A stretch of 64,000 nucleotides of DNA, from positions 1 through 64,000 of the forward strand of contig JAAFJY010000037.1 of assembly GCA_013299105.1 (NCBI GenBank), written 5' to 3'. The stretch comes from Chitinophagales bacterium. GTDB taxonomy: Bacteria; Bacteroidota; Bacteroidia; Chitinophagales; Saprospiraceae. Positions 44,851-52,800 of the stretch are shown piece by piece (within the stretch, counting starts at the first letter, position 1; each line of letters opens with the position of its first letter). The notes beneath the pieces were generated by a model. That model was not told where the DNA came from, searched no databases, and saw nothing but the letters and a program-made list of their open reading frames with translations. The translations under genes and the position numbers were made by a program.

Positions 44851-47202
44851 TTATAAAAAATTTTCTTTGCTTAAATCGAGATTAATCAAAGTAGTGAAAT
44901 CCGCCATCACTTGTTCGTGACGTTTTTGTGACCAGTAGATGACCTTGAACTGCAACTGATCTTGCATTTTTCCTTCAAAAATCACCTTGGCTTCGGGATC
45001 AATTTGCACACCTTCTTGGCGAATGGCGCAATTTTTCAGTAAAGACAAGACTTTCACTGGGTCTGCTTTGGAAGAAGTCCTCACAATGAGTTCCTGCATG
45101 CGTGTACCATCCGCACCGTATTGAGCCACTACCCGGCGATTCATCAGGTCGGCGTTAGGCACCAGCACCATGTGGCCGTCTTTGCGCAAAACCTTGGTAC
45201 TGCGCAGCCCTATTTCAATCACTTCCCCAACCAAGTCATCCTGAGAAATGGTTTCTCCGGTTTTGATGGGGCGTTTAAAAATCAAGATCAAACCAGCAAA
45301 TAAATTCGCGGCCCAGGATTGCAGGCCAAAACCCAGCCCAAAAGCCAAAGCGCCCAAAATCAAACCCAGGCTCTGCAAGCTAAACCCAGCATAGGCCAAC
45401 GCAAATAAAACCCCTAAAAAAACGACGCCCATACGGGCCAAGGTACCCAAAGCCTGTGGTGCGCCTTTTTCAAGTTGCAGCCATGCTAGCATATCTTCGG
45501 CCAAGAAAAACTGAATGATTCGCCCCAATAACCAAGCGGCCAACAGGATTAAAGCAAACCCAATGACTCCACCAATGCTCACCTGAATTTGCCCCAGCGA
45601 AAAACCCAGGCCCCACACCAGTCCGAAAGCATCTTCTAGGGGTTTGTACAAGCGCATAAACCCAAGGGCATAAGCTACCCAAACGATCACGCCCAGTACA
45701 CGCAGCAATCTGCCAATGCCACTCACAAATTTTTGGCGATCAGCGTATTGATCGGCACTCAAATCAGTACTGCGCAAGCCGATGCCAAAGCGCAACAGGC
45801 CGTCAATGAGTAAAATGGCACTGAATACAATGATTCCAGTGAGGAAGATGCGCTCCAAATTGAGGTTAAAGCCATCCGCCAAGTTATCGTATCCGCTAAT
45901 GTTGCCTAAAGCCGATATGGTGCTTACCACCAACAACAAAGGCGAAACCAAACGCATAATGCCCCCGAAACTTGTACTGGTTTGCGCTTCGCGAAACCAT
46001 TGGCGGTCGCGCAAGCCCACCGAAAAAACCACAAAAGCCAGGGCCAGGCTTTCAAAAAGCATGAACCAACGGAAAAATACTGGACTGACCATGATGGTCT
46101 TGAGCATCAAATGGCCAAAAAACAAGGCTCCTACCACATAAATACTCCAGCGGATGCCCTGGTGCACAAAACGTGGCACGATGACCAAAAAAGGCACCAC
46201 CAAAGCCATCACGATCAACTCACTGAAAACCGAAGGGCGATTGGGGTAAATCAAAGGTGTCATCAGCAAGGTGAGCAAAAAAGCAGTAGTCAAGGGTTGC
46301 GCCAATACGATCTCGGTGGCAAGGTTGAATTCAGGATTGCGACCAGGGGCCTTGTTTTCTTTTTTGAGCAAAGAACGCCCCAGAAACAGCAACAAGCCCA
46401 AACCAAAAAACAGCATGAAGTGCAAAACCATGCGCTCCTGGTTGTTGCGGAAAAATTCTCTCAATTCTTTGCGGAAATAGTCCAGTGCAACTTTGCGGTA
46501 ACTGTCCGCAGCGGGCGAATTTTCAAACAAAGGCAGGTCAAAAAGCACGGGTTTTCTAACGCTCAAAAGGTTTTGCAAAGCTGGTTTTTCCAGGTCTTCC
46601 AACTGTGCAGCTTGGGTTTGGCTGAGTAGTTTTTGGTTGACCACTTCGTTTTGTAAGGCCAAGATTTCGTTCATGCGGCGGTCCAGGTCCTTGGCACTTT
46701 GTTTGAGGTTGAGTTGCAAGGTATCAATGCGTAAGCGTACTTGCTCAGGGATGTCACTAGAAAGACTTAGACTGGTTGTTTTCCAGATTTTTTCGCGCAG
46801 GAGCAGTTGGTCACGTAAATCTGTCAACTGTCGGGAATAGTTGTTGAGTTTGCGTTCATCTTCTCTGCTCAGGCTAAGGAAACGACGCCAACGCGAAGCC
46901 AAACTGGCGCTGATGCGGGTAGCCACCTGTTGCTCCAGCACATAGTTGCTGATGCGGCGCAGGCTATCCGAAGTATGCCTGAGTGTATCAATGGAGTTGC
47001 GAACCTCATCAAGAATGAAGCCCCGATCAAGGGCAGGTTTGAAATCATTGCGCAAAAACAGCTCCGCATTGCCCAATTGCTCGGCGAGGTTTTGAATCGG
47101 CACGATGCTATCACCGGGTACAGTGGCATTTTGTCCACTCAGCACCACCGAAAAAGCGATACCATATAGTAAGGTAGGTAGAATGCGCAGGAGCTTGTTC
47201 AT
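44851..47202 (-). CDS. Large MscS-family mechanosensitive channel
   Basis: 783 aa. Signal peptide or first helix (MNKLLRILPTLLYGIAFSVV), a helical, probably coiled-coil periplasmic region (~residues 25-245; LRHTSDSLRRISNYVLEQQV), about ten membrane helices (~260-600), and the MscS core: LAFGLGFGLQSWAANLFAGL as pore helix with small residues, then FKRPIKTGETISQDDLVGEV and LVPNADLMNRRVVAQYG of the beta domain. By family it opens under membrane tension to release solutes; the large extracytoplasmic part resembles MscK/MscM-type proteins. It is divergent from the RAYT region. Confidence 0.92.
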   Translation of the reverse strand: MNKLLRILPTLLYGIAFSVVLSGQNATVPGDSIVPIQNLAEQLGNAELFLRNDFKPALDRGFILDEVRNSIDTLRHTSDSLRRISNYVLEQQVATRISASLASRWRRFLSLSREDERKLNNYSRQLTDLRDQLLLREKIWKTTSLSLSSDIPEQVRLRIDTLQLNLKQSAKDLDRRMNEILALQNEVVNQKLLSQTQAAQLEDLEKPALQNLLSVRKPVLFDLPLFENSPAADSYRKVALDYFRKELREFFRNNQERMVLHFMLFFGLGLLLFLGRSLLKKENKAPGRNPEFNLATEIVLAQPLTTAFLLTLLMTPLIYPNRPSVFSELIVMALVVPFLVIVPRFVHQGIRWSIYVVGALFFGHLMLKTIMVSPVFFRWFMLFESLALAFVVFSVGLRDRQWFREAQTSTSFGGIMRLVSPLLLVVSTISALGNISGYDNLADGFNLNLERIFLTGIIVFSAILLIDGLLRFGIGLRSTDLSADQYADRQKFVSGIGRLLRVLGVIVWVAYALGFMRLYKPLEDAFGLVWGLGFSLGQIQVSIGGVIGFALILLAAWLLGRIIQFFLAEDMLAWLQLEKGAPQALGTLARMGVVFLGVLFALAYAGFSLQSLGLILGALAFGLGFGLQSWAANLFAGLILIFKRPIKTGETISQDDLVGEVIEIGLRSTKVLRKDGHMVLVPNADLMNRRVVAQYGADGTRMQELIVRTSSKADPVKVLSLLKNCAIRQEGVQIDPEAKVIFEGKMQDQLQFKVIYWSQKRHEQVMADFTTLINLDLSKENFL

Positions 47203-47281
47203 TTGGCTGTAAATTCAAGTAAAAGCTTATCCTAGCGGTTTCGAGACAAAAAAGATGACGGTTTTTCGTCAGCCGAGCCTG

Positions 47282-47319
47282 CTTTTTGTGAGGGTAGCAG
47301 GTGCTACCTTCACAAAAAG
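47282..47319. repeat. Strong palindrome upstream of the MscS gene
   Basis: CTTTTTGTG...GGTAGCA pairs with TGCTACC...CACAAAAAG around a two-base loop, interrupted by only one small mismatch. It lies between the divergent MscS gene and the RAYT region, where no transcript is expected to end, so an insulating or regulatory role is as likely as termination. Confidence 0.75.
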
Positions 47320-47430
47320 AGGCGAAGGATCACGGAAAAACGACCTTTTTTGGCCGAAATGGGAGCAGGCTAAGCTTTTACAAATTCAAGCCAAAGTTAA
47401 CTGCTTTTTGCAATTTTGGTAAAAAGGTGC

Positions 47431-47438
47431 TACTTTTG
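47431..47438 (+). promoter_or_regulatory. -7 box (TACTTTTG) before the truncated 5' copy
   Basis: A TAnnTTTG box with TTG 20 bp upstream (47408-47410), matching the Bacteroidota -33/-7 pattern. It precedes the duplicated 5' end at 47435-47537 and may be the original promoter of the phospholipase C-like gene. Confidence 0.6.
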
Positions 47439-47537
47439 AACTTCTCCGCTGCACCCAGCAAATCCATTTTACCATGTCGAACCTTCGCCTTGTGCCGCTT
47501 TGCGGCCTGCTGGGAATGCTATGCTTGTGTACATCCA
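47435..47537 (+). repeat. Direct repeat, left copy (5' end of phospholipase C-like gene)
   Basis: About 102 bp matching 48392-48493 with roughly five differences. It covers the end of the promoter, the 5' UTR and the first ~20 codons of the gene at 48430. Confidence 0.92.
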
Positions 47538-47665
47538 GGCTGTTTGCTGGTACAAGTCTCCAGACTTGTACCGCTATGTACACGTCTCTGACGTGCTTAA
47601 ACCAACAAATCAACCTTATTAAACACCTAAAAACACACTCAAATGCCACGTTATCGTATCAATGA
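47474..47665 (+). pseudogene. Truncated 5' copy of the phospholipase C-like gene
   Basis: The 63-aa frame begins MSNLRLVPLCGLLGMLCLC, the same signal peptide as the intact gene (MSNLRLVPLCGLLGVLCLC), then runs into REP DNA (FAGTSLQTCTAMYTSLTC) and ends inside the transposase. It is the remnant left when the RAYT unit separated it from the rest of the gene, or when the 5' end was duplicated. It still has a promoter-like box, and may yield a short peptide. Confidence 0.8.
47546..47600 (+). repeat. REP pair (BIME), left of RAYT
   Basis: Two hairpins: GGTACAAGTCTCCAGACTTG with TACC, and ACACGTCTCTGACGTG. The complement of this pair recurs at 48248-48304 on the other side of the transposase gene. 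Confidence 0.9.
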
Positions 47666-48237
47666 CCAACATGGATTGAACTACCTTACTTGTACCATCG
47701 TAGGCTGGATTGACATTTTCACCAGAGCAGAATACCGCGACATTATAATCGATAGTTGGAAGTATTGCCAAGCATCCAAAGGTCTGCGGATTTACGCTTA
47801 TGTGCTCATGAGCAACCACCTGCACCTGATCGCGAAGGCTGATGGAAATCAGGAGTTATCTGCCATATTGCGAGATTTCAAAAAGTTTACAGCCAACAAA
47901 ATACTCGATATCGTTGAACATGGTAATGAAACCAGAAAAGAGTGGATGTTGCACATGTTTCGTCATTATGCACGTGTAAATGCCAATAACCGAGAATACC
48001 AGATTTGGACAAATAACAACCATCCAATTGAGTTGGTTTCACCTGAAGTGATTTGGCAAAAAGTAAGGTATGTTCACAACAATCCAGTGCGTGCAAAATC
48101 GGTGAAATCACCAGAGGAATCTTTACAGTAGTGCTCAAAATTACTATTCTGAAAACCAAGACTGCCTGTTAGAGGTGGACTTGTTAGCGACTTTTTTGCC
48201 GAATAGTGGCTATGTTTATGTGCCTAGTTTTGAGTGA
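47643..48237 (+). pseudogene. REP-associated tyrosine transposase (RAYT), C-terminus frameshifted
   Basis: The open frame (47643-48131) codes for 162 aa of the Y1/RAYT type: LTCTIVGWIDIFTRAEYRD, the HUH motif in MSNHLHLIAKA (His59, His61), LRDFKKFTANKI, and YVHNNPVRAKSV, ending SPEESLQ. The usual continuation of this family, YLYSSA..Y, is found in another frame directly after: YSSAQNYYSENQDCLLEVDL followed by LATFLPNSGYVYVPSFE up to TGA 48237. A 2-bp loss at ~48120 (GAGGAA-T-CTTTAC) explains it. The enzyme moves single-stranded REP DNA; whether the truncated form is active is unknown. The catalytic Tyr could not be pinned down. Confidence 0.85.
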
Positions 48238-48247
48238 TAGTCAGGGT

Positions 48248-48304
48248 TTTAAAGCACGTCAGAGACGTGTATGTAATAGTACGAGTCTGGAGACTCGTAC
48301 CAGC
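48248..48304 (-). repeat. REP pair (BIME), right of RAYT, inverted
   Basis: AAAGCACGTCAGAGACGTGT and TAGTACGAGTCTGGAGACTC then GTACCAGC are the complement of the left pair with a few changes, so the transposase gene is enclosed in ~55-bp imperfect inverted repeats each holding two REP hairpins. Confidence 0.9.
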
Positions 48305-48388
48305 GGCTTCGATGGTATGTTTGGGTAGTTTCTTGAGAATTTCGGTTTCAAAAAGTGTAATTGCTTGATTTTTATAAAAAAATAGATC

Positions 48389-48396
48389 TATCTTTG
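48389..48396 (+). promoter_or_regulatory. -7 box (TATCTTTG) of the phospholipase C-like gene
   Basis: A perfect box 34 bp before ATG 48430, with TTG 21 bp upstream (48365-48367). It is a different sequence from the box of the left copy (TACTTTTG), although the DNA right after it is the duplicated segment. Confidence 0.7.
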
Positions 48397-48493
48397 AATC
48401 TCCGCTGCACCCAGCAAATCCTTTTTACCATGTCGAACCTTCGCCTTGTGCCGCTTTGCGGCCTGCTGGGAGTGCTGTGCTTGTGCGCATCCA
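48392..48493 (+). repeat. Direct repeat, right copy
   Basis: Counterpart of 47435-47537; includes CTCCGCTGCACCCAGCAAAT and the coding start MSNLRLVPLCGLLG of the intact gene. Confidence 0.92.
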
Positions 48494-49659
48494 AACCCGT
48501 CATCCAGCCCAAATGGGGCTTTTTTGGCCATCGCCGCATCAACCAGTTGGCGGTCTATGCCTTGCCGCGTGACTTGATTGGCTTTTACAAGTCACACCTG
48601 GAGTACATCTGCGCTCATGCAGTGGACCCTGACAAACGCCGCTATGCTGTCAAGCTAGAAGGTCCTAGGCATTTCATCGACTTGGACCAGTATGGCTCCT
48701 CCCCTTTCGATGATTTGCCCCACAATTGGTCCAGAGCCCTGTTGAAGTACAGTCAATTCACTTGGGTTTCAGCGGCTGGAGATACCAGTATCTTGCACCG
48801 GGTAGGCGAAATAAAATGGTATCCCAGCAAAGGAAATGTCCTAAGAACGAGCGCAATTCACTACGATACACTGCCCTTATTCAAGCTTTTTGCACAATAC
48901 TGCCTTCCCAATTACGGCGATGAAGCTTGGGTGCTACCCTTTGATTCATTGGCTGCTCGGCTCAAGTGGCCTTTGCTCGGCGGCCAATTGCACATCGAAG
49001 AACACCTGAGTCAGCATGGCATTTTGCCTTTTCATTTGTGCAAAATGCAAGAAGCCCTGAGCGCCGCCTTCAAACGACACGACCAAGCCAGCGTTTTGCG
49101 CCTTTCAGCTGAAATGGGTCACTACCTTGGCGACGCACATGTGCCTTTGCACACCACCCGCAACTACAATGGCCAACTCAGTAACCAAGTTGGCATCCAT
49201 GCTTTTTGGGAAAGCCGCATCCCTGAACTCTTTGCCGATGAACACTACGATTTTTGGGTAGGTACGGCCCAGTATTTGCATGATCCCGAAACTTTTTTTT
49301 GGAAAACCATTTTAGATAGTCACCATTTAGTCGATTCTGTATTGCACATCGAACAGCGGTTGAGCAAAACTTTTCCCGCCGCTCAACAATATGCTTGGGA
49401 GGAAAAAAATGGGCAAAGCATCCGAACCCAAAGCCGTCATTATGCAGCAGCCTATGAGCGAGCCCTTGATGGCATGGTGGAAGCCCAAATGCAAAAAGCA
49501 ATCCGAGCTTTGGCCAGCACCTGGTATACCGCTTGGGTGGACGCCGGAAAACCCGCCTGGACAGCCTGGAAACAACGAACAATTGAATTGCATACGGCAG
49601 ACAGCCTAGTCAGCGAAACCAAGCACTTGGGCAGGCATAAAACCCGGGAACACGAGTGA
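48430..49659 (+). CDS. Zinc-dependent phospholipase C/S1-P1 nuclease-like protein
   Basis: 409 aa from ATG 48430. Signal peptide (MSNLRLVPLCGLLGVLCLC, possibly a lipoprotein). The mature N-terminus WGFFGHRRINQLAVYALP places Trp and His as the first zinc ligands; EYICAHAVDPDKRRYAVKLE, PRHFIDLDQY and MGHYLGDAHVPLHTTRNYNG supply the others, with GIHAFWESRIPELF after. This fits the zinc-dependent phospholipase C (PF00882)/S1-P1 fold. Expected to act on phosphoesters outside the cytoplasm; substrate unknown. Its first ~20 codons are duplicated 960 bp upstream, so the ORF was restored or preserved during RAYT insertion. Confidence 0.87.
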   Translation: MSNLRLVPLCGLLGVLCLCASKPVIQPKWGFFGHRRINQLAVYALPRDLIGFYKSHLEYICAHAVDPDKRRYAVKLEGPRHFIDLDQYGSSPFDDLPHNWSRALLKYSQFTWVSAAGDTSILHRVGEIKWYPSKGNVLRTSAIHYDTLPLFKLFAQYCLPNYGDEAWVLPFDSLAARLKWPLLGGQLHIEEHLSQHGILPFHLCKMQEALSAAFKRHDQASVLRLSAEMGHYLGDAHVPLHTTRNYNGQLSNQVGIHAFWESRIPELFADEHYDFWVGTAQYLHDPETFFWKTILDSHHLVDSVLHIEQRLSKTFPAAQQYAWEEKNGQSIRTQSRHYAAAYERALDGMVEAQMQKAIRALASTWYTAWVDAGKPAWTAWKQRTIELHTADSLVSETKHLGRHKTREHE

Positions 49660-49961
49660 TTGGCAAGTAAATCAGGTACAGATTTTGCTTAAAAACTCGT
49701 TTAAACAAACAAATTACTAAGCCATGAACCTTATTTCTGTTAAAGTCAAAAAAAAATGCACGAAAACTTGCTGAATTGTCACAGAAATTTCAGACTTTAG
49801 CGCTACACAATTCATAGAGGTCTAACAGCAAATTTAGACCTCATTTATGCCTCCCATACCAAATAGTTTTTCAGTCCCATCCCATGAGCATACCGACGCT
49901 AAAATCCCTGTTGGTGTAGTAGCATTTTATTCGTTGAGAAAATCCTCTAAATCTTTCGGTC

Positions 49962-50057
49962 ATGCTTATTTTACTCGTTACCGCCGTCGCATTCGTTGCT
50001 GGAGCCTTGATCATTTCGTCTTTGAATCAAGCCACTCCTAGAAGTGTACGCAGATAA
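49962..50057 (+). CDS. Possible 31-aa membrane peptide
   Basis: The frame MLILLVTAVAFVAGALIISS LNQATPRSVRR has one strongly hydrophobic helix followed by a basic tail, the pattern of small single-pass proteins. No clear ribosome binding site or promoter is seen; it lies next to the hairpin element. Could be a chance frame. Confidence 0.25.
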   Translation: MLILLVTAVAFVAGALIISSLNQATPRSVRR

Positions 50058-50083
50058 AGAAATTTACTTGCGTCCCCTCCTCT

Positions 50084-50218
50084 TAGTATTTGAGCTAAAA
50101 CAAGGCAGACAAATTTGCTTTTGAGGTTTAGCAAAAAAGAACACAACTTCCTTTCATCCAGTTGTTTTTCTTTTTTCACTAAACCCAAATCCGTCCACCT
50201 TATTTTTTTACGCTCTCT
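50084..50218 (+). repeat. ~135-bp hairpin element, copy 4
   Basis: Starts TAGTATTTGAGCTAAAACAA and ends TTTTTTTACGCTCTCT. The inner stem GAGGTTTAGCAAAAAAGAA with TTCTTTTTTCACTAAACCC is well preserved; the outer arm has AACAAGGCAGAC against GTCCACCTTATTTT. Confidence 0.9.
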
Positions 50219-50287
50219 TACTCGCCTTAAGCTAGCTGATGACAAATCTATTTCTTTTGCACTGAATACTTAAGGCAAAAAACAGCA

Positions 50288-50325
50288 AAACCAAGCATCC
50301 CTTCATTGTGGATGCTTGGTTTTTT
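50288..50325. terminator. Terminator after the outer-membrane receptor gene
   Basis: ACCAAGCATCC and GGATGCTTGGT form an 11-bp perfect stem with a 9-base loop, flanked by T-runs on both strands. On the minus strand it lies ~90 bp after the receptor stop. Confidence 0.88.
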
Positions 50326-50412
50326 TATTTTAGTTGACATGTTGAAGGTTGAAGGGTTGAAAAGTAGGGCGTTCTCTTCAACTTTTCAACTTTTCAACTT
50401 TTCAACTCCTTC

Positions 50413-52800
50413 TCACTTATCAGATGTCCTGCGCTGCTCTTCGGAGGCACCACTCCTGCGGCGATCACCTTTTTTCAGGTACTGATTGCCAAAATTGTAA
50501 GTCAAACTCAAGCTTGCAATGCGCGTTTCCCACTGCGACTGGATGTCAGCGACGAATCCAGCATGGTTGATTTTACCGTTCCAATAGCGGAAGAAAATAT
50601 CGTCCCAACTGAAATTGAAGTTGAGTTTGTTGTCAAAAAACTTCTTCTGTACACCCATGCTCACACTGTACAGGTGTTCTGATTTTTGAATACCTTCAAT
50701 CCCAGGGCCATTGTACCAGCCACCGATTTCCACTTTCCAATCCTTGGGTAAGGTGTAGGTGCCTTGCAAAAAGGCCGTAACATTCCAGCGGCCTTGGTCG
50801 TACAGCTCAGAGAATACCTCTGAAGTGTACTTGTTGTGATACACCATCACGCCACCGTAACCGTCCAGTTTTTTCACAAAACTCAAAGGAAAAAACAAGC
50901 TACCTCCGATGCGCTCAAAAGTGGCCAGGTTGTCGTCGATGCCAAAACCAATGCCCGTACTCACATCTTGTTGGGTAATCATTTGGATGACGTTATTGGT
51001 TTTGGAATATTCCAGGCTAAAGAAAGGCTGGTTGTCGTAAGTCAAGGAAGCCTTGTAGCTGTCCGTCAACTCAGGCCGCAGGAAGGGGTTCCCTTTGCGG
51101 TAAGTGTAGGGGTCCAAAAACTGCACAAAGGGGTTGAGGGAGTTGTAATTGGGGCGATTGATACGGCTGCTGTAAGCAAGGTTTGCACCCAGTTTGCCTG
51201 CTACTGGGGCGGAAATGCTCAAACTAGGAAACAAACGGGAAATGCGGCGATTTTGAGTTGAATCCAGGGTCACTGAATAGCCCGAAGACAAAGAGTTTTC
51301 ATAGCGCAGGCCAAATTGGGCCTCAATTTTGTTGATTTTGAGGTTTCCGCTCAAATAGGCCGCCGAGATTTCTTCGGTAAAAATGAAGTAGTTAGAGAAC
51401 TTAGGGTCGTTTTGCCATACATTTTCCAGAAAAACTGTGGCTTGCAGGTCGTTGTCTACCACCGCGTGGCTGTACTTGAGGCCTGTTTCCAATTTCAAAG
51501 CTTTGCCGATAGGCTTCACATAATCCAAGCGGTAAGCTTCGATACCCGTTTTTCCGGGTTGCTTTTGGAGGCGATTGGGATAATCCCCGGTTCCTGCTTG
51601 CAACTTGGTTTCCAGGGTGTTTTGCACATTCCGGCCGTAGCGATTGATACTGAAGTCGGCGCTCAATTTTTGACCGGAAGTGTCAATTTTGAATTCGTAA
51701 TAGGCATCACCATTCACAAACCCACTGCGGCGGCGCACAGTATTGGTGGTCAACAATTCAGCACGGGCTTTTTCCAGGTCGTTCAAAGCCAGAATGGAGG
51801 TCAAATTTTCGTTTACCACCCGGTTCGAGGCACCGAGGGTATTGACTGAAGCACCAATGGTTTGGCGCTGATCCAGGTAATAATCGATACCTGTTTTGAA
51901 ATTGAGCGAATAGGGTTTGAAGGGCTGGTCATTGGACTGGCGAAACAACTCATTGCCTACCTGGCGATCGAGCAACAAGCGCTCAAAGCCCGTGCGGTGG
52001 TTAAAGGCCAGCAAATTGGTCAGGTTGACCTTGTTTTTGCGATAATTGATCGAACCCGATGCGCGATATTTCCAAAAACGGCCTACTCCACCACCCAGGG
52101 TAATATTGCCATTGGTGCCCAACTTGATGTTGCGCTTGAGGATGATGTTCAACACCGCGCCAGTACCCTGGGCGTCATATTGTGAGCCAGGCTGGCTGAT
52201 AACTTCGATGCGATCAATGTTGGCCGAGGGCATGTCGCGCAGCAGACTCTGCATATCCATGTACTGGGTTGGACGACCATCAATGAGAATGGTCAGGCCC
52301 GATTGCCCTGCCAGACTGATGCGGTCATTGACCACGATCATGCCAGGTACTTTGCGCAAAACATCCAGTACGCTGCCGCTTTGAGCAGTCAGGCTATTGG
52401 CCACATTTACAATCATGGTCCCCGCTCTTTGCTCCAAGAAGGGCTTGCGGGCTACGATTTGAGCAGTGGCCAGGGTCTGGGCCGCTACTTCCAAGCGAAT
52501 ATCGGGCAAGGTTTTGATACTGCCATCCAAGTTTAGGTTCTGGAACTGGTCGCCATATCCCAGCATTACTACTTTCAACAGGTATGCGCCATTGGGTACT
52601 TCGGCCATTTCAAAGTGCCCATCGTCTTCCGAAATGGCCGCTTTGACCAAGCTGGAGTCAGTAGTTTTAAGTACCAGGACGTTGGCGTAAGCCAGGTTTT
52701 GGCCTTTTTCGTCGAGAATTTTTCCTTCTACCTTGCTGGTTTGGGAAAAAAGAGAACAGCATAGCAGGAGTGCACTGCCAAGGGTCAGAAAATGTTTCAT
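50413..52800 (-). CDS. TonB-dependent-receptor-like outer-membrane beta-barrel protein
   Basis: 795 aa with signal peptide (MKHFLTLGSALLLCCSLFSQ). Domains in order: carboxypeptidase-regulatory-like domain (~22-108, VEGKILDEKGQNLAYANVLV), plug-like domain (~120-215, VLDVLRKVPGMIVVNDRISL, VISQPGSQYDAQGTGAVLNI), and a long beta-barrel ending at ~780 (OMP_b-brl_3 type). The lack of a clear TonB box and the group's features suggest a barrel of the outer-membrane receptor type of unknown ligand. No SusD-like partner is adjacent, so it is not part of a polysaccharide-utilisation pair. A conserved terminator follows. Confidence 0.9.
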   Translation of the reverse strand: MKHFLTLGSALLLCCSLFSQTSKVEGKILDEKGQNLAYANVLVLKTTDSSLVKAAISEDDGHFEMAEVPNGAYLLKVVMLGYGDQFQNLNLDGSIKTLPDIRLEVAAQTLATAQIVARKPFLEQRAGTMIVNVANSLTAQSGSVLDVLRKVPGMIVVNDRISLAGQSGLTILIDGRPTQYMDMQSLLRDMPSANIDRIEVISQPGSQYDAQGTGAVLNIILKRNIKLGTNGNITLGGGVGRFWKYRASGSINYRKNKVNLTNLLAFNHRTGFERLLLDRQVGNELFRQSNDQPFKPYSLNFKTGIDYYLDQRQTIGASVNTLGASNRVVNENLTSILALNDLEKARAELLTTNTVRRRSGFVNGDAYYEFKIDTSGQKLSADFSINRYGRNVQNTLETKLQAGTGDYPNRLQKQPGKTGIEAYRLDYVKPIGKALKLETGLKYSHAVVDNDLQATVFLENVWQNDPKFSNYFIFTEEISAAYLSGNLKINKIEAQFGLRYENSLSSGYSVTLDSTQNRRISRLFPSLSISAPVAGKLGANLAYSSRINRPNYNSLNPFVQFLDPYTYRKGNPFLRPELTDSYKASLTYDNQPFFSLEYSKTNNVIQMITQQDVSTGIGFGIDDNLATFERIGGSLFFPLSFVKKLDGYGGVMVYHNKYTSEVFSELYDQGRWNVTAFLQGTYTLPKDWKVEIGGWYNGPGIEGIQKSEHLYSVSMGVQKKFFDNKLNFNFSWDDIFFRYWNGKINHAGFVADIQSQWETRIASLSLTYNFGNQYLKKGDRRRSGASEEQRRTSDK

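Follow-up and report, generated by a model that had tools for sequence, protein, structure and literature searches.

The repetitive extragenic palindrome (REP)-associated tyrosine transposases (RAYTs, or TnpA_REP) are regarded as domesticated enzymes that disperse REP copies but stay in place themselves; the way in which REPs spread has still to be explained. In excerpts of the published accounts, RAYTs are described as apparently unable to self-mobilise (PMC3116915), the mobility of tnpAREP is said to be without evidence, and TnpA_REP is reported to cut between C and T and, in one species, also between C and A (both PMC8266576); subclass 2.6 of these proteins is placed mostly in Bacteroidetes and given the signatures NH[LIV]H, WQ and YIH[QN]NP (PMC6006769). 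For the IS200/IS605 insertion sequences (ISs), the excerpted text of PMC2817692 states that no larger target duplications are made. The present analysis concerns a 64,000-nucleotide stretch of a Saprospiraceae genome (contig JAAFJY010000037.1, positions 1 to 64,000, referred to as the window) and, within it, a unit at 47546-48304 in which a RAYT gene lies between inverted REP pairs and is flanked by two copies of the start of one gene. The likeliest explanation is that this REP-RAYT-REP unit landed a short way within the 5' end of the gene that begins at 48430, and in doing so duplicated about 130 bp (possibly ~190 bp) of its target. The arrangement is real, and probably exemplifies a result of RAYT-unit insertion that has not been described before.

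The locus resembles several known systems in part. With the RAYTs (REPtrons) of subclass 2.6 it shares a Y1 gene between inverted REP palindromes, dispersed REPs and the motifs NHLH, WQ and Y[IV]HNNP; it differs in that the window genome holds a second, diverged unit, and in that a related unit in another genome, G056, has a 91-bp duplication where a congener has an empty site. With IS200/IS605 (TnpA Y1) it shares a related Y1 transposase and palindromic ends, but the duplication is 91 bp in the proven case of G056 and about 130 bp in the window. Like REPINs and miniature inverted-repeat transposable elements (MITEs), the family includes short derivatives that end in REPs or in IS termini (in the window genome blocks of 162-165 bp and MITEs of ~404 bp, in G056 copies of 297-299 bp), although REP-edge copies here may carry long repeats. 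Long target duplications are known from R2-like retrotransposons, which are driven by a reverse transcriptase, whereas the RAYT unit encodes a Y1 protein only. In titles and abstract openings of the open-licence literature no report of long duplications at RAYT units was found.

The unit and the doubled start of its target gene

The features of the locus, with their positions in the window, are these:

47413-47537, forward strand: left copy of the putative target duplication (D'), with promoter box, 5' untranslated region (UTR) and signal-peptide codons; gapless 95% core at 47443-47537
47431-47438, forward strand: left-copy promoter box, TACTTTTG; a TTG lies 20 bp upstream of it
47474-47665, forward strand: truncated 63-aa open reading frame (ORF) of the left copy, reading through into the REP
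47546-47601, forward strand: left REP pair, a unit boundary common to the copy on contig C10; shorter copies begin at the same REP edge
47643-48131, forward strand: RAYT gene whose frame breaks near codon 163 (Pfam Y1_Tnp; REP_Tyr_transpos equivalog of NCBIfam)
48249-48304, reverse strand: right REP pair, repeating the left one in inverted orientation
48305-48367, no strand assigned: stretch from right REP to right repeat, ending in a weak 12/18 match to an IS terminal repeat
48368-48493, forward strand: right copy of the putative duplication (D''), the 5' end of the intact gene; core at 48399-48493
48389-48396, forward strand: right-copy promoter box, TATCTTTG; a TTG lies 21 bp upstream of it
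48430-49659, forward strand: intact target gene, 409 aa, phospholipase C / P1 nuclease superfamily-like, with a signal-peptide-like start

The REP pairs form inverted arms of 56 nt that are 86% complementary, and their coordinates agree with those of the initial annotation to within a base. Outside the REPs, as had also been noted there, lies a direct repeat that takes in the 5' UTR and signal-peptide codons. Its gapless core (47443-47537 and 48399-48493) is 95 bp long at 95% identity; with gaps it extends over 47413-47537 and 48368-48493 (128 bp, 87%), or to 117 bp at 89% under stiffer gap costs. Four of the five core differences fall within the last 23 bp, and identity is clearly lower across the promoter stretch than in the core; because of this mosaic, dating the two copies by their divergence would be unsafe. 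When a 1066-bp stretch was compared with the 7.67-Mb genome (the best 40 of 55 candidate places being scored), no match on other contigs covered the repeat.

Both copies bear a TTG / TAnnTTTG pair, presumably a promoter motif of the Bacteroidota -7/-33 type. The initial annotation had correctly placed the right box with TTG 21 bp upstream; it had also called this promoter a different one, but the left copy has a box too, and the two seem to be diverged versions of one promoter. A structured RNA in the repeat was considered and ruled out, none of the three Rfam matches lying within the repeat and all three scoring far below gathering.

The downstream gene is whole (409 aa), while the left copy is a 5' fragment with a truncated ORF of 63 aa. 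Both points had been anticipated; the accompanying idea that the unit split the gene is rejected, only the 5' end being doubled. The proposed phospholipase C-like identity survives as a superfamily-level guess, since the protein scores below gathering against both Pfam S1-P1 nuclease and Zn_dep_PLPC; it has no NCBIfam match. Among 40 relatives, 36 match the target gene, with identities of 39-53% for full-length matches. Tandem pairs of full genes, which had been named beforehand as the finding that would make the left copy an unrelated remnant, were seen in none of the 40, the double matches being neighbouring segments of one gene. This bears on the idea of an ancient tandem gene duplication, in which the left copy would be what is left of a second full gene and would have nothing to do with the RAYT. 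The 95% core beside a much less similar promoter stretch does look as if the two parts had separate histories, and one RAYT in the survey described below (L110) is lodged between tandem paralogs. The similarity, however, breaks off at the signal peptide, with 8 bp to go before the REP, and no trace of the remaining gene was found on the left; an origin of this kind is accordingly judged very improbable.

In the window, the neighbour of the target gene is a mechanosensitive channel gene. No channel gene was found at the target gene in the loci of 19 relatives (about 1.5 kb on each side), and for this reason no empty site was found for the window locus; the 16-mer core of the UTR motif was likewise absent, at up to 2 mismatches, from these 19 loci around the target gene. 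Between the start of the channel gene and the left repeat, at 47250-47351, there is an imperfect 50-nt inverted repeat (72%), which matches no RNA family at gathering score.

The predicted transposase scores 84.6 bits against NCBIfam NF047646 REP_Tyr_transpos (cut-off 80) and 28.8 against Pfam Y1_Tnp (cut-off 23), and falls below the IS200/IS605 equivalog model (21.2 bits, cut-off 55). By eye it shows NHLH, WQ and YVHNNP (with V for I), where three genus relatives have YIHQNP, and these signatures would place it in subclass 2.6. It is 162 aa long, against 198-202 aa in five related copies, and the frame break near codon 163 marks either a decaying copy or a sequencing error. A scan of contigs for close relatives in named genomes gave four loci, with identities over the greater part of the protein that do not exceed 52%; the nearest named RAYT relatives are in Bacteroidetes metagenome-assembled genomes. 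Within its own 7.67-Mb genome the window query has 88 matches, mostly REP arms, and the arms of the unit are present at about 30 other places; of the three RAYT genes in this genome, two have unit bounds and upstream sequence in common. Immobility as a single-copy gene, which is a reported behaviour of RAYTs and not a structural criterion, is found neither in the window genome nor in the pair of genomes described next.

An insertion and its empty site in related genomes

In G056, a genome of the same order but another family, a 703-bp REP-RAYT-REP unit lies between two 91-bp copies (D) of 98% identity. The arrangement D-unit-D at G056:C2 is flush, with zero bases between D and unit. In the congener G069 (G069:C14) the flanks are contiguous and D is single, at about 75% identity; when the query was split in two, its halves matched there with an overlap of 47 bp. 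Two convergent genes have their final codons and stop codons within D, and after the insertion in G056 both are whole, each with a copy of D to itself. If D were single in G056, the ends of these genes would overlap by 11 bp; in G069 they lie 11 bp apart. The G056 RAYT scores 101.4 against the REP_Tyr_transpos equivalog (cut-off 80). The alignment of the two congeners shows that insertion with a long duplication occurred at least once, and the earlier proposal, of a target duplication well beyond the length that Y1 chemistry would give and of a gene preserved in spite of it, finds here the same outcome together with an empty site. On this comparison RAYT units are able to move whole and to leave duplications of ~100 bp in their targets, contrary to the published views that RAYTs do not self-mobilise and that IS200/IS605 elements make no large duplications.

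Three internally deleted copies in G056, of 297-299 bp, keep both unit ends in other surroundings, and two further short copies keep one end clearly. The possession of common unit ends by these short copies is a sign of unit mobility. C ends seven of the eight strand-specific 5' flanks of the four two-ended G056 insertions, which accords with the cleavage between C and T or C and A reported for TnpA_REP in the excerpt of PMC8266576. The deleted units (L241, L242, L243, L244, L245) also retain ~200 bp of RAYT 5' coding sequence, as 90-92% copies.

Related units and REP elements in the window genome

The second unit, on contig C10 (locus L029), has the same bounds as the window unit and 74% DNA identity to it; its RAYT scores 87.6 against REP_Tyr_transpos. 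With the RAYT read forwards, a whole DEAD-box helicase gene lies on the 5' side, and repeated pieces of its 3' part follow the right REP, the first (58 bp, 88%) after a gap of 2 bp and the next one 83 bp long with 98% identity. The upstream leader of the C10 unit aligns with the left repeat of the window at a score of 115.7, against a maximum of 102.5 in 300 shuffles. A 17-mer, TCCGCTGCACCCAGCAA (L029 2600-2640; G000:C10:23614-23630), has exact matches in the genome only in the two window copies and in C10; it overlaps a sequence that faintly resembles the IS terminus, and was not found at up to 4 mismatches in the loci of the third RAYT and of the genus relatives. The C10 leader probably came from the duplicated 5' end of the target gene and travelled with the unit. 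If it did so, the closer likeness of D' and D'' to one another has to be explained by gene conversion of the core.

The REP arms also belong to a family of shorter elements. The genome has 33 identified element places including the window, 25 of them with bounds usable for a comparison of edges; searches of the genome scored the best 40 of 55 and 40 of 72 candidate places. A block of 162-165 bp, consisting of two REP pairs, is present at 19 of these 25 loci; twelve have both 18-bp IS-type termini, in ten cases 389-419 bp apart. To judge from these lengths and termini, the REP element is nested in a MITE family of ~404 bp (L031-L056). Its likely parent is an IS at C12:183379-184801 (L096 680-2102), with 18-bp termini CAGCAATTCCCGCTTTGG, a DDE_Tnp_1 transposase and a 9-bp duplication; among the 12 copies with both termini, three have an exact 9-bp duplication and two more have 8/9 bp by eye. 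Long flanking repeats occur at five of the 11 loci that begin at a REP edge and at none of the 14 with a left IS-type end (p=0.009), a grouping that was made after seeing the data and that counts L048 as REP-edge although by eye it has a degenerate IS-type left end. The five repeats measure 128 bp (window), 83 bp (C10), 107 bp (L046), 35 bp (L039) and 31 bp (L040), of which that of L039 is of low complexity and that of L040 lies in a hairpin, so that both are weak evidence.

These edges raise the question of capture by an IS end: the transposase of the IS would have made a one-ended insertion of a MITE with 18-bp termini and 9-bp duplications, with displacement synthesis to the REP edge, and the window unit would be an old relative of such products. 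L039, L040 and L046 do start at the REP edge and end at a recognisable right IS terminus with the right repeat 0-3 bp beyond it; the right-hand stretch in the window ends in a 12/18 match to the terminus, 1 bp before the repeat, and a parent with the appropriate transposase and duplication exists on C12. Yet a 12/18 match has a chance expectation of about 0.05 over the stretch, and a terminus match of equal quality at C10 lies more than 100 bp from its repeat. The repeats of L039 and L040 have the defects just described, and the G056 unit, with REP edges at both ends, needs no IS. At the window no left IS terminus was found within 6 mismatches in the 130 bp scanned, and the unit does not have the terminal inverted repeats at both ends, combined with a short duplication, that mark a DDE IS. 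Capture of this kind is considered unlikely as the origin of the window locus.

Flanking repeats at other RAYT loci and a possible mechanism

A survey of 298 genomes gave 107 RAYT matches. The 80 regions fetched cover 83 of them, in addition to the window and C10; 22 were left out, 12 of these near contig starts. With eight loci from other searches, and after removal of L118 as the same place as L149, the set comprised 90 loci with 94 genes, of which 88 had flanks of sufficient length. Any flanking repeat of at least 50 bp was present at 28/88 RAYT genes and 5/392 controls. For "clean" repeats the counts were 4/88 and 4/392, with identities of 81-98% and 61-74% respectively, one of the RAYT four being L165, which was later dropped. 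Repeats of at least 35 bp that remained after masking of REPs and occurred in exactly two copies were found at 16/88 RAYT genes, against 3/166 control intervals taken from the same loci and overlapping each other (p=6e-6).

The window and C10 were studied directly, and five of the 16 loci were followed up. L216 supplied the proof. L165 was dropped, parts of its repeat being dispersed in its own and related genomes, as was L196, whose repeat is dispersed in its own genome, and L110, where the RAYT lies between wider tandem paralogs. For L154 no empty site was within reach: a 156-bp direct repeat of 99% identity, at 979-1134 and 1885-2040 around the RAYT, contains a REP, and had no match in the other 5 genomes searched, only its REP end being matched elsewhere in its own genome. 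L112 and L121 were not used as support, their repeats including REP-like palindromes, though L121 is still counted among the 16.

Several observations weigh against insertion with a long duplication as the explanation of the window. The proven empty site is a single one (G056 against G069), and a clear reading was reached for only a minority of the 16 survey loci; these two facts limit confidence in the proposal to moderate. Of the 88 RAYT genes, 69 have no REP-masked flanking repeat. Among the 16 survey loci there are two dispersed repeats and one case of tandem paralogs, long duplications are absent from all five of the short G056 copies that were tested, and the C10 and L046 repeats are two-copy within the fetched loci, the scope of that count. 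The frame-broken RAYT places any movement at the window in the past. The window repeat flanks the unit, as first described, without abutting the REPs: 8 bp remain on the left, and on the right 63 bp separate the REP from the gapped repeat and 94 bp from the core. The intervening region, 48305-48367, aligned in anchored fashion to the sequence left of D', scores better than all 500 of 500 shuffles, and is equalled by 9 of 500 AT-matched genomic stretches. It may itself be a diverged duplication, which would extend the repeat up to the right REP edge (~190 bp). Finally, the flanks of E. coli K-12 rayT (L273) hold an 84-bp direct repeat of 94% identity, presumably the known REP array. Since REP arrays alone give direct repeats, only repeats that are REP-free and flush should count.

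In another conceivable route the unit inserted beside the gene without duplication, a later tandem duplication between REP palindromes doubled the unit and the gene start, and one unit was then lost, leaving the 5' fragment. REP arrays promote rearrangement, flanking repeats are found at 28 of 88 RAYT loci and at E. coli rayT, and in the window a gap separates the repeat from the REPs, all of which fits. The route nevertheless requires the exact loss of one unit, and the flush 91-bp D-unit-D of G056, against the single D of G069, does not follow from it in any simple way. A repeat search of 46800-50600 found no remnant of a second unit. It is regarded as rather improbable.

Insertion with a long duplication could proceed as follows. 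The transposase would nick after C, and the 5' ends of the REP-bounded unit would be joined to 3'-OH ends of the target, with the two joints tens to hundreds of bases apart. In one form, staggered nicks on opposite strands would leave long 3' overhangs that are filled in; in another, a polymerase would extend the target 3'-OH by strand displacement before the second end is joined. Displacement synthesis primed by a RAYT-made 3'-OH, with dimers on two strands, has been proposed for the growth of bacterial interspersed mosaic elements (discussion of PMC2817692, in excerpt). At the window the left copy would become a dead fragment beside the left REP pair, while the right copy would keep promoter, 5' UTR and signal peptide. 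The C10 copy would probably descend from such a unit, having taken along a piece of the left repeat.

A wider proposal, put forward only tentatively, is that Bacteroidota REP-RAYT-REP units are true transposons with a new Y1 (HUH) reaction, in which REP-guided 5' ends are joined to opposite-strand nicks tens to hundreds of bp apart, giving ~100-bp duplications that spare abutting or overlapping genes, and in which duplicated promoters drive the transposase. With its exact ends, its 91-bp duplication and the empty site as counterpart, the G056 unit offers a concrete substrate and product, and makes the reaction testable in vitro. Duplications that span a promoter and signal peptide, or two gene ends, would account for the ability of these units to establish themselves in compact genomes while sparing the genes, and would also show how they might acquire host promoters. 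In the window, RAYT and target gene each have a promoter copy upstream, and the left copy is a candidate driver of the RAYT.
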